A stretch of 37,764 nt of DNA from a virus. The position numbers and the translations under genes were made by a program. Every line of letters starts with the position of its first letter. The stretch's first letter is position 1. The stretch covers positions 1-37,764 of the IMG/VR virus record IMGVR_UViG_3300037153_000309, one strand, 5' to 3'. The notes beneath the pieces were generated by a model that saw only the letters and a list, made by a program, of their open reading frames with translations, was not told the DNA's origin and did no database searches. Of this stretch, positions 24,559-34,083 are shown piece after piece.

Positions 24559-25062
24559 CTACCCGAGACACTCCTTCGCCTCGTCAGCAGCATCCGTCAA
24601 GAACAAGGTGTCCTGATAGTCCCGCATCGGCGACCCCTCCTGGGCTGCCGTACCCCAGTCGAAGAACACCCGCGCCACATTGTCGCCCACGATTATCGGG
24701 CCGATGCTCCCCTGCGGCGCGCCCAGCCCAAGGAACACCGTCTCAGTAGACGATCCGTTATCCACCTCGAGGGCGGCAACGTACTCGATCCCGAACTGCT
24801 GCTCGTCGTCCGGAAGGGGCACCGCGGCCCCGTCCACGATCTTCGTCTGGGAGTAGATCAGTCCTTCCGAGATCTGGTTCAGGACCTTCGGCGAGAGCTG
24901 GACGCAGTTCGTCGACGTCGACGGGCTCTCACTCGTCGACGGGCTCTTACTCGTCGGGCTTTCACTCGTCGGCGAGCTCCCACTCGATGAGTCTGAGGAT
25001 GAGCACCCTGCCACGAACAGCACCGCGGCGGCGACCGCCATGCCCTGTTTGCGGCGATCCAT
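24559..25062 (-). CDS. Lipoprotein with Ser/Thr/Pro linker, unknown
   Basis: The start at ATG 25062 gives 167 aa with a standard lipoprotein signal (MDRRKQGMAVAAAVLFVAGC). The lipobox is VAGC. An SPTSESPTSKSPSTSESPST linker follows, then a globular domain (SPKVLNQISEGLIYSQTKIV, YVAALEVDNGSSTETVFLGL, ARVFFDWG). An in-frame ATG 17 codons upstream is less likely because it would bury the signal. Prophage lipoproteins near att sites are known superinfection-exclusion factors in several systems. That role here is only a suggestion. Confidence 0.8.
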   Translation of the reverse strand: MDRRKQGMAVAAAVLFVAGCSSSDSSSGSSPTSESPTSKSPSTSESPSTSTNCVQLSPKVLNQISEGLIYSQTKIVDGAAVPLPDDEQQFGIEYVAALEVDNGSSTETVFLGLGAPQGSIGPIIVGDNVARVFFDWGTAAQEGSPMRDYQDTLFLTDAADEAKECLG

Positions 25063-25158
25063 CCACTTAGCGTCGCCCCGGTCATGATCGGTAGTCAAAC
25101 GGACCAAACCCATGAGCTAAGGATCCGGCCGATTCGGCTCGTCTTCCGATTTGAATAA

Positions 25159-32937: not shown

Positions 32938-33449
32938 AACTGACCCGGCCGTTGGCGTTCAAGGTGTACGGCACCCCGGCACCCCAAGGCAGCCTGCGCA
33001 CCATCGGGAACGGGAAGGCCCGCCGCCTGATCAACGACAACCCGAAAACCGGGCCATGGCGGGAACGTGTCGCCAAAGGCGGCCGGGCCCTGATGGCCCA
33101 CCACCACTACCCCGAACCCATCGACGGGCCGATAACCGTCACGGTCACCACCACCCTGCAACGCCCCGTCAGCATCAAGCCGCACAAGCGCTGGTGGCCG
33201 TACCTGCAGTCACCGGGTCATGGCGACGTCGACAAGCTCGCCCGGACCGTCCTCGACGCCCTGGTCGACGCCCGCGTCATCGCAAACGACGCCCAGGTCG
33301 TCGAGCTGGTCGCCGTCAAGGCCTACCGCGACACCCCCACGGCACCCGACCGACTCCACCGGCCGGGTGCCGTCATCCGCATCTACCCCACCGAGCAACC
33401 CGACGACCAGCCCACCCTCGACACCCAGGCGGAAAGGACCGTGGAGTAG
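32934..33449 (+). CDS. RusA-family Holliday junction resolvase
   Basis: This 171-aa protein shows RusA landmarks: FKVYGTPAPQGSLRTI at the N-terminus, ITVTVTTTLQRP, then the catalytic region SPGHGDVDKLARTVLDALVD, ARVIANDAQVVELVAVKAYR (paired aspartates, then Asp and Lys). It cuts branched recombination intermediates before packaging, fitting the upstream exonuclease and annealing genes. It has an ATGA start, and its TAG overlaps the next GTG by one base. Confidence 0.9.
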   Translation: MKLTRPLAFKVYGTPAPQGSLRTIGNGKARRLINDNPKTGPWRERVAKGGRALMAHHHYPEPIDGPITVTVTTTLQRPVSIKPHKRWWPYLQSPGHGDVDKLARTVLDALVDARVIANDAQVVELVAVKAYRDTPTAPDRLHRPGAVIRIYPTEQPDDQPTLDTQAERTVE

Positions 33450-33820
33450 TGCCCTGGTTCAAAGTCGACGACAACTTCGCGTCCCACCCGAAAGCGGTCG
33501 CCGCCGGCAACGCCGCCCTCGGACTATGGGTCCGCGCCGGCGCGTGGTCCATGCAGCAGCTCACCGACGGCTACATCCCAGGCAATATCGCACGCATTCT
33601 CGGGAAACATTCCGAAGCGGTCGCGCTTGTCAACGCCGGACTATGGATCCCGAAAGACGACGGATACCTATTCCATGAATGGGCCGAACGCCAGCCAACC
33701 CGAATTCAACTGGAGGCGCAGCAAGAACAGACACGGCAACGGCAGCGACGGGGCCGCGAGGCGCAGGCGCGTCGACGAGCCGCTGAGAGGGCAGCCACTG
33801 AGAAGGAGGGATCGCCGTGA
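33449..33820 (+). CDS. Winged-helix replication-initiator-like protein
   Basis: This 123-aa protein contains WFKVDDNFASHPKAVAAGNA, ALGLWVRAGAWSMQQLTDGY, IPGNIARILGKHSEAVALVN and GLWIPKDDGYLFHEWAERQP. This matches the winged-helix N-terminal domain of phage replication initiators (DnaD/gpO-like). A highly basic helical tail follows (RQRQRRGREAQARRRAAERA), suited to DNA binding. The iteron-like repeats start 11 bases after the stop, which strongly links this gene to origin binding. The longer C-terminal domain of the full initiator is missing. Confidence 0.75.
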   Translation: MPWFKVDDNFASHPKAVAAGNAALGLWVRAGAWSMQQLTDGYIPGNIARILGKHSEAVALVNAGLWIPKDDGYLFHEWAERQPTRIQLEAQQEQTRQRQRRGREAQARRRAAERAATEKEGSP

Positions 33821-34083
33821 GTGACGCGTTTGTCACGCGTGACGGTCGCGTCACTGTCACGCGTCTGTCACGCGTGACCGTCGCGTCACTGTCACGCGTG
33901 ACTCACGGCGATGTCACGGTGGTCCCATCCCATCCCAAGACAAGCGACTCGTTCCCAACCTGGGAACCAAAACTCACCTTGGTCTCGAACTGGCCAAGCA
34001 ACCTGTCACCAACCGCACCAAAAACCACCCTTCGTAACCTCTCACCAGGAATTTCATCAGGTCACACTGGAAAGGCCGGCTAG
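33817..34083 (+). CDS. ORF through the repeat array, doubtful coding
   Basis: This 88-aa frame has a strong AAGGAGG site seven bases before GTG 33817, so translation is likely to start here. The product is repetitive (VTVTRLSRVTVASLSRVTHG) because it reads through the DNA repeats, and then low-complexity. It may be a relic of a gene overrun by the origin, or simply translated origin DNA. Confidence 0.35.
   Translation: MSDAFVTRDGRVTVTRLSRVTVASLSRVTHGDVTVVPSHPKTSDSFPTWEPKLTLVSNWPSNLSPTAPKTTLRNLSPGISSGHTGKAG
33821..34080. other. Candidate replication origin (iterons plus A/T-richer flank)
   Basis: A cluster of GTCACGCGT words at 33821-33919 is followed by about 150 bases clearly richer in A/T than the surrounding genes. 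A 7-bp hairpin GTTCCCA-acc-TGGGAAC lies at 33951-33967. The region directly follows a replication-initiator-like gene. No confident gene occupies it. This is the classic composition of an iteron origin; function is inferred. Confidence 0.6.
33831..33900. repeat. Tandem 35-bp direct repeat with palindromic iterons
   Basis: 33831-33865 and 33866-33900 are tandem copies differing at two positions. Each begins with TGTCACGCGTGAC and contains a second TGTCACGCGT 24 bases on, so the sites fall at 33831, 33855, 33866 and 33890. A partial copy, TGTCACGG, is at 33912. The core GTCACGCGTGAC is a perfect 12-bp palindrome. Confidence 0.9.

Follow-up and report, generated by a model that had tools for sequence, protein, structure and literature searches.

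Replication origins that lie inside initiator genes are already known. In lambdoid phages, the origin is located within gene O and comprises imperfect inverted-repeat iterons, which are bound by the initiator, and an adjoining A/T-rich region, as outlined in the available part of a published account (PMC7466680). In phage SPP1, oriL maps within gene 38 and oriR is located approximately 13 kb away; direct repeats and an A/T-rich region are the elements described in the accessible sections of the source (PMC6316719). Short repeats also occur in bacterial origins. In V. cholerae ori2, 5-base (G/A)ATCA repeats and DnaA-trios lie close to the initiator sites, at the place of origin opening, and short repeats of bacterial origins are reportedly read as single strands (PMC10797057, in part). 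The RepA-type mycobacteriophage prophage replicons Miko, Rachaly and Jeeves encode RepA proteins of 320–350 aa, and the regions that the authors examined reportedly contain no repeated motifs (PMC7157519). In the literature searched, we found neither a mapped origin for the PHROG 2447-type phage family nor experiments on any family member.

Here, we describe a locus that is very likely to be the replication origin of an actinobacterial phage, as judged from comparison with related loci (region 33821–34080). The locus is contained in the virus record IMGVR_UViG_3300037153_000309, a single record (G000) of 37,764 bases, which was analysed over its whole length and is hereafter called the window.

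The initiator gene and its genomic context

The record carries terminase, portal, head, tape-measure and integrase genes. Its early region contains exonuclease, RecT-like and RusA-like genes, followed by the gene starting at 33449. GC content ranges from 0.63 to 0.75 in 1.5-kb bins, and the GC skew calculated across the record shows no clear switch at 33.9 kb. A 33-bp tandem repeat (2.1 copies) with smaller GGGCTCTCAC-like units occurs at 24916–24987, inside a reverse-strand ORF (24559–25113).

The protein encoded at 33449 matches the PHROG 2447 profile 'replication initiation protein' (E 2.4e-43) at positions 3–121 of 295, which correspond to the first two fifths of the profile. The AlphaFold2 model (pLDDT 96.1) features helices at 45–51 and 54–62, a two-strand wing at 66–75 and a long helix at 85–121. 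A fold search against BFVD matched, among others, proteins named 'Replisome organizer' (E 2.4e-6 and 3.2e-6). Pfam searches returned no match for this protein and no replication family for 50 family members, and no significant match was found among solved structures in the PDB (best fold E 0.3, best sequence E 0.21). The C-terminal part of the full-length PHROG 2447 type is missing, as the protein stops at 123 aa, before the repeats; most relatives exceed 200 aa.

The initiator has matches in 585 phage records. Loci were taken from genome contigs (best 80 of 101 loci) and from viral contigs (best 80 of 404 loci); the titled loci among the best 80 of 101 are from Actinobacteria. Together with the window, 175 sequences with a tblastn match were available; of these, 152 are distinct and extend 500 nt or more beyond the winged-helix domain. 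The start of the initiator carries an invariant WF.VDD motif. The translated linkers of several relatives contain VTRD/VSHG-like repeats and, after them, repeats of TRPDP or VPSRP; the underlying DNA consists of palindromic sites and, behind them, a tandem C-rich array. The initiator of phage Raleigh (L013, NC_047795.1) is annotated as 'mucin-2', probably because of its Pro/Thr-rich linker, which encodes the origin. The features of the window are listed in Table 1.

Table 1. Coordinates of the initiator gene and of the elements of the candidate origin in the window
Feature	Position	Strand	Basis
Winged-helix replication initiator, short type, 123 aa	33449..33820	+	PHROG 2447 match and AlphaFold2 model
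19-bp inverted repeat (95%), enclosing most iterons	33811–33829 / 33894–33912 (span 33811..33912)		
Open frame through the origin, judged non-coding	33817..34083	+	No matches, no codon-position bias
Iteron array, 11 GTNAC sites and 35-bp unit x2.2	33821..33917 (97 bp)		Repeat and motif counts
C-rich array CCCATCCCATCCC	33924..33936	+	Perfect TCCCA x3 at 33923–33937
A/T-richer stretch, candidate unwinding region	33937..34080		GC 0.54–0.60 in 50-base bins
Hairpin GTTCCCA-ACC-TGGGAAC, 7 bp	33951..33967		Bottom-strand folding energy -6.3 kcal/mol, z -2.88

Palindromic sites

An earlier, sequence-only reading of the window had described a 35-bp tandem unit with GTCACGCGT sites at distances of 24, 11 and 24, beginning 11 bases after the initiator gene. 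Both observations hold. The unit is present in 2.2 copies at 95% match (33824–33899, score 138), the repeats are well in excess of chance, and the first GTCACGCGT is found at 33832, 11 bases after the end of the initiator ORF at 33820. Further copies on the plus strand are at 33856, 33867 and 33891, and because the sites are palindromic, three more are read on the other strand. The resulting count of 7 in the window compares with 1.44 expected, and none of 100 shuffles reaches 7. The full palindrome GTCACGCGTGAC occurs exactly three times in the whole 37,764-base record, at 33832, 33867 and 33891; all three copies are perfect and correspond to three pairs of GTNAC sites. The unit is more aptly described by its GTNAC sites, of which 11 lie between 33821 and 33917. 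The 19-bp inverted repeat takes in the stop/start overlap of the initiator gene and the open frame.

Relatives sharing the initiator were checked for the repeat in a looser form; none showed the exact 35-bp unit, but similar site clusters were present. At least three GTNAC sites lie within the 110 nt preceding the C-rich array in 65 of 131 loci, compared with 1 of 131 control stretches. Across the family, GTNAC sites peak 25–50 nt before the array, and the favoured pair distances are 24, 8, 12, 16 and 11. The sites were supported against synonymous-codon permutation in 48 of 58 coding loci. Many of the other loci use different short sites, such as CGAAC/GTTCG, AAGCA/TGCTT, GGCAA, GGACT and CGATC. 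A site class, picked by eye after viewing the sequences and with noisy labels in Streptomyces, was assigned in 109 of 133 loci, and 24 were left unclassed. On the poorly resolved tree, no fewer than 34 changes of site class are required. Classes were identical in 54 of 72 pairs at 0.8–0.9 identity and in 940 of 3154 pairs at 0.4–0.5, a difference that is no more than suggestive. The residues most strongly associated with site class fall in the helix-turn-helix (columns 50, 52, 55 and 56) and in the basic helix (85–93), an association that relatedness explains equally well.

C-rich array

The C-rich array that follows the sites, as well as the family-wide context, is missing from the picture drawn in the sequence-only reading. 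In relatives, the array takes the form (CCCNN)n or (CCCNNN)n. In 131 of the 152 distinct loci, an array lies no more than 400 nt past the winged-helix domain. Control stretches contain one in 5 of 147 cases upstream and in 9 of 149 further downstream. The loci are mutually related, and these counts overstate their independence. The main spacing is 5 in 114 loci, 6 in 16 and 4 in a single locus. Spacer letters vary (GA in 72 loci, GT in 22, and nine rarer kinds) while CCC is constant, and they change at least 39 times on the poorly resolved tree. Arrays contain at least four C-tracts in 110 of 131 loci and only three in the remaining 21, including the window. The periodicity departs from within-gene synonymous-codon permutations at p<=0.05 in 102 of 116 coding loci (5.8 expected at the 5% level) and at p<=0.01 in 88. 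No array was detected by the pattern used in 21 of the 152 loci, some of which carry variants. The repeat unit, CCCNN or CCCNNN, differs from the 3'-(G/A)AT-5' repeats that define DnaA-trios.

In its looser form, (CCCN2-3)2CCC, the pattern has three other matches elsewhere in the record. In a scan for (CCCGA) covering at least 80 loci, 53 of 85 arrays had an initiator no more than 900 nt away, 30 had none at that distance and 2 sat too close to an edge; among the matches listed, many of these 30 look unrelated. The metagenomic contigs L199, L216, L222 and L243 each carry two or three (CCCGA)n arrays with no family initiator nearby, perhaps reflecting another, unrelated use of the repeat.

The array pattern was also found in 16 of 19 cultured phage records that were fetched, namely Ali17, 1191A, Raleigh, AxeJC, Verity, Appa, E6, Fruitloop, Shoya, YassJohnny (a doubtful match), Taj, Vasanti, Vendetta, Finkle, UmaThurman and Apricot. 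It is absent in Malithi, Tourach and Grizzly. The Malithi initiator gene (L317) features about four copies of a CCATTACCAACA-type repeat in place of the CCC array. In Grizzly (L323), a short initiator is followed, after position 1266, by many ATGCG sites and no CCC array, and this phage perhaps has another origin layout. Two circular plasmid records of 51.8 and 86.1 kb (L329 and L330) carry the initiator family and look like phages or phage-plasmids.

A/T-rich step and hairpin

The sequence-only reading had placed an A/T-richer stretch with a small hairpin after the repeats, and both are found there. GC content falls to 0.54 at 33951–34050, compared with 0.63–0.75 in the 1.5-kb bins of the record. 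In the family, the mean A/T content is approximately 0.2 in the array and 0.55 in the 10 nt that follow, and it is back at approximately 0.3 after 40 nt. An A/T-rich region adjoining the sites, as expected from lambda O and SPP1 gp38, is found both in the window and in the family.

A hairpin with a stem score of at least 7 occurs in the 60 nt following the array in 56 of 131 loci, compared with 5 and 2 of 131 in two sets of controls. Of these 56 hairpins, 38 have a loop that reads TNC or TNNC on the top strand, equivalent to GNA or GNNA on the bottom strand, and that is always closed by a C-G pair. GNA/GNNA-type loops were found in 1 of 293 control hairpins with stems of at least 6. Once repeats were removed, the consensus loop was retained in 28 of 44 distinct hairpins and in 24 of 38 clusters. 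DNA mini-hairpins with GNA or GNNA loops, d(cGNAg) and d(cGNNAg), are unusually stable. Loop type, wobble pairs (5 compatible with bottom-strand and 1 with top-strand folding in 11 hairpins) and the energies of three hairpins favour folding of the bottom strand, with small numbers in each case. Hairpins exceeded synonymous-codon permutations (p<=0.05) in 52 of 115 coding loci. The window hairpin begins 14 nt after the array, compared with a family median of 2 (IQR 0–5), and its loop, ACC, falls outside the GNA/GNNA consensus.

The open frame through the repeats

The sequence-only reading had noted a strong ribosome-binding site ahead of an ORF that reads through the repeats, and had suggested that this ORF may be a gene overwritten by the origin. 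The site is present (AGAAGGAGGG at 33801–33810, preceding a GTG at 33817). The gene is unsupported. ORF 33817–34083 has no PHROG, Pfam or family match, nor any phage match at E<=1, and its GC content is nearly even at the three codon positions (0.56/0.59/0.60, compared with 0.66/0.47/0.93 in terL and 0.72/0.50/0.71 in the initiator gene). We judge it non-coding, an open frame to which the repeats themselves gave rise. In phage E6, a hypothetical gene that contains the array, gp51 (L316, 1247–1459), resembles this open frame and is probably not a gene.

Position of the block relative to the initiator gene

The array lies in frame within the initiator gene in 116 of 131 loci and is non-coding in 15. 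In all 15 distinct loci with an initiator of 108–127 aa, the window among them, the array is found after the stop codon. The candidate origin of the window directly follows the stop codon, rather than lying inside the gene, because the initiator is of the short form. Phage E6 is likewise of the short type, with a 121-aa initiator and an array 94 nt after the stop. The short and long forms changed into one another at least 6 times on the tree, compared with a mean of 14.5 for shuffled labels, and the tree is too poorly resolved to give a direction. It is plausible that long initiators containing the origin evolved into short ones that leave it outside, or that evolution ran the opposite way.

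In many short-type loci, the genes following the origin form a family (L100:3044-3688, L103:2987-3466, L090:3048-3521, L121:664-1101 and others), which was identified as PHROG 16038, of unknown function, in 4 of 8 scanned. Such genes possibly supply a missing partner or the C-terminal function of the initiator. The C-terminal half of long initiators might have become the next gene in short-type loci, but links between the C-termini of long-type initiators and these genes are weak, and the next gene in the window does not match this family.

Three contigs carry the block away from the initiator gene. L192 has a complete one, with GTTCG-type sites, a CCCGA array and the hairpin GTGAAACC-TAAC-GGTTTCAC, lying between genes approximately 6.3 kb from the initiator. 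L308 is part of the L146 contig; its block, which comprises GTCACGCCGTGAC, an array and a hairpin, is located approximately 14 kb from the initiator by contig coordinates. The L240 block resembles that of L192, and its contig also carries an initiator at locus L156. L192, L308 and L240 are three of the ten viral records that lack a linker array; in the other seven, a stricter four-tract pattern gave no match elsewhere. The same pattern was uninformative in 10 bacterial genomes, which are too large for it.

Since the block lies after the gene in 15 short loci and away from the initiator in three contigs, it is best viewed as a DNA element. That it persists whether coding, placed behind a stop codon or remote from the initiator gene indicates that it is constrained as DNA, and in coding loci the synonymous-codon permutations show such constraint as well.

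Discussion

Comparison of the loci indicates that a three-part block is kept across the family, comprising a cluster of palindromic sites, CCC repeated every 5 or 6 bases, and an A/T-rich step that often carries a hairpin. The window is a slightly degenerate member, with only three C-tracts and a hairpin loop off consensus. Window-specific evidence for the array and the hairpin is modest, as the array is perfect but short and hairpins of this strength are seen in 2–5 of 131 controls. The case for the window as an origin stems from the presence of all three parts in the family order and at the family position. Repeated sites are found in or next to the initiator gene, as for lambda O and SPP1 gp38. 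The proposal of the sequence-only reading, an iteron-like origin beside its own initiator, is supported by relatives that keep site clusters, a C-rich array and often a hairpin in the same place.

By analogy with lambda O and SPP1 gp38, the short winged-helix protein would bind the palindromic sites as an array, and the C-rich array and the adjoining A/T step would then open. The opened array might be held single-stranded, as either the C-rich top or the G-rich bottom strand, and the bottom-strand hairpin might mark the place of helicase loading or priming. Theta replication would follow.

The array combines strict spacing and a constant CCC with variable spacers, which suggests a reader that recognizes CCC (or GGG) at intervals of 5–6 bases, perhaps on single strands. 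Tentatively, the array could represent a new class of origin element, a single-strand track read by conserved replication machinery and paired with a GNA/GNNA hairpin on the G-rich strand that marks the place of priming. Possible readers, proposed with equal reserve, are a host helicase or primase factor or the WF.VDD start of the initiator. Because the initiator sites are exchangeable while the CCC track stays, one host-read signal would serve phages across Actinobacteria. No description of the array and hairpin layout was found in the literature searched, which is weak evidence of absence, as subscription journals were mostly missing from it.

The same array might instead act as a G-quadruplex on the bottom strand, or as an i-motif, the main, though doubtful, alternative, which concerns the array only and not the origin. 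Most arrays have four or more C-tracts, enough for a quadruplex on the other strand, and the spacers vary around a fixed CCC. On the other hand, arrays limited to three tracts, such as that of the window, fall short of this number, and the strict spacing of 5 or 6 (114 and 16 of 131) is unnecessary for a quadruplex.

Winged-helix proteins are often repressors, and the repeats could be an operator through which the protein controls its own operon or its neighbours, with the array and the hairpin as transcription signals. The distant copies in L192 and L240, which lie between divergent-looking ORF starts, fit this arrangement. We nonetheless regard it as improbable, since nearly all loci have the block within the initiator gene or past its end, rather than upstream of it, and the protein family is annotated as a replication initiator.

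Slightly less probable still is that the window contains a decayed origin or a chance tandem duplication with no function. Although the short array and the off-consensus hairpin would agree with decay, the sites are intact perfect palindromes, the three parts keep the family order and position, and the initiator retains an open frame and a confident full fold. Selection on the linker peptides (VTRD..., TRPDP, VPSRP), with the DNA repeats as a by-product, is highly improbable: the array is usually in frame and its pentamers always encode a 5-residue repeat, but the 15 non-coding arrays, the three distant copies, the synonymous permutation tests and the stop codon preceding the block in the window all contradict it.

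If region 33821–34080 is an origin, as we favour, the combination of sites, CCC track and hairpin provides a rule that would predict the origin to within approximately 100 bases in Mycobacterium, Gordonia, Streptomyces, Microbacterium, Arthrobacter and Propionibacterium phages. The block would also explain the odd VTRD/TRPDP linkers of the family initiators and offers testable minimal replicons. Moreover, it would clearly illustrate how a DNA signal can be embedded in a protein-coding gene, and the family includes natural cases in which the gene withdrew from it.

Among known systems, the PHROG 2447 proteins of Gordonia, Mycobacterium, Streptomyces and Microbacterium phages are matched by the window protein over their first 121 positions. 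Unlike most of these relatives, which exceed 200 aa and contain the origin, the window initiator has 123 aa and the origin lies outside its gene. The RepA replicons of Miko, Rachaly and Jeeves, compared here by their partial description, share with the family an actinophage initiator and an origin suspected within or beside its gene (PMC7157519). The short repeats beside initiator sites recall V. cholerae ori2 and DnaA-trios, a comparison of working principle only; going by the excerpted source, both the sequence and the initiators differ, and a single-strand role of the phage array is hypothetical (PMC10797057). The family resembles SPP1, as partly described, in having an initiator of the replisome-organizer type and, in L192 and L308, an origin far from the gene; in contrast, the SPP1 origin descriptions at hand contain no C-rich array (PMC6316719). 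As in lambda, the family origin resides in the initiator gene and consists of inverted-repeat iterons with an A/T-rich region alongside. Unlike in lambda, as far as the accessible account extends, a C-rich array with a 5- or 6-base period separates the iterons from the A/T-rich step, a GN(N)A hairpin often follows, and the block may be located beyond the stop codon or well away from the gene (PMC7466680). According to these partial accounts, the array occupies the place where lambda and SPP1 have only A/T-rich DNA (PMC7466680, PMC6316719).
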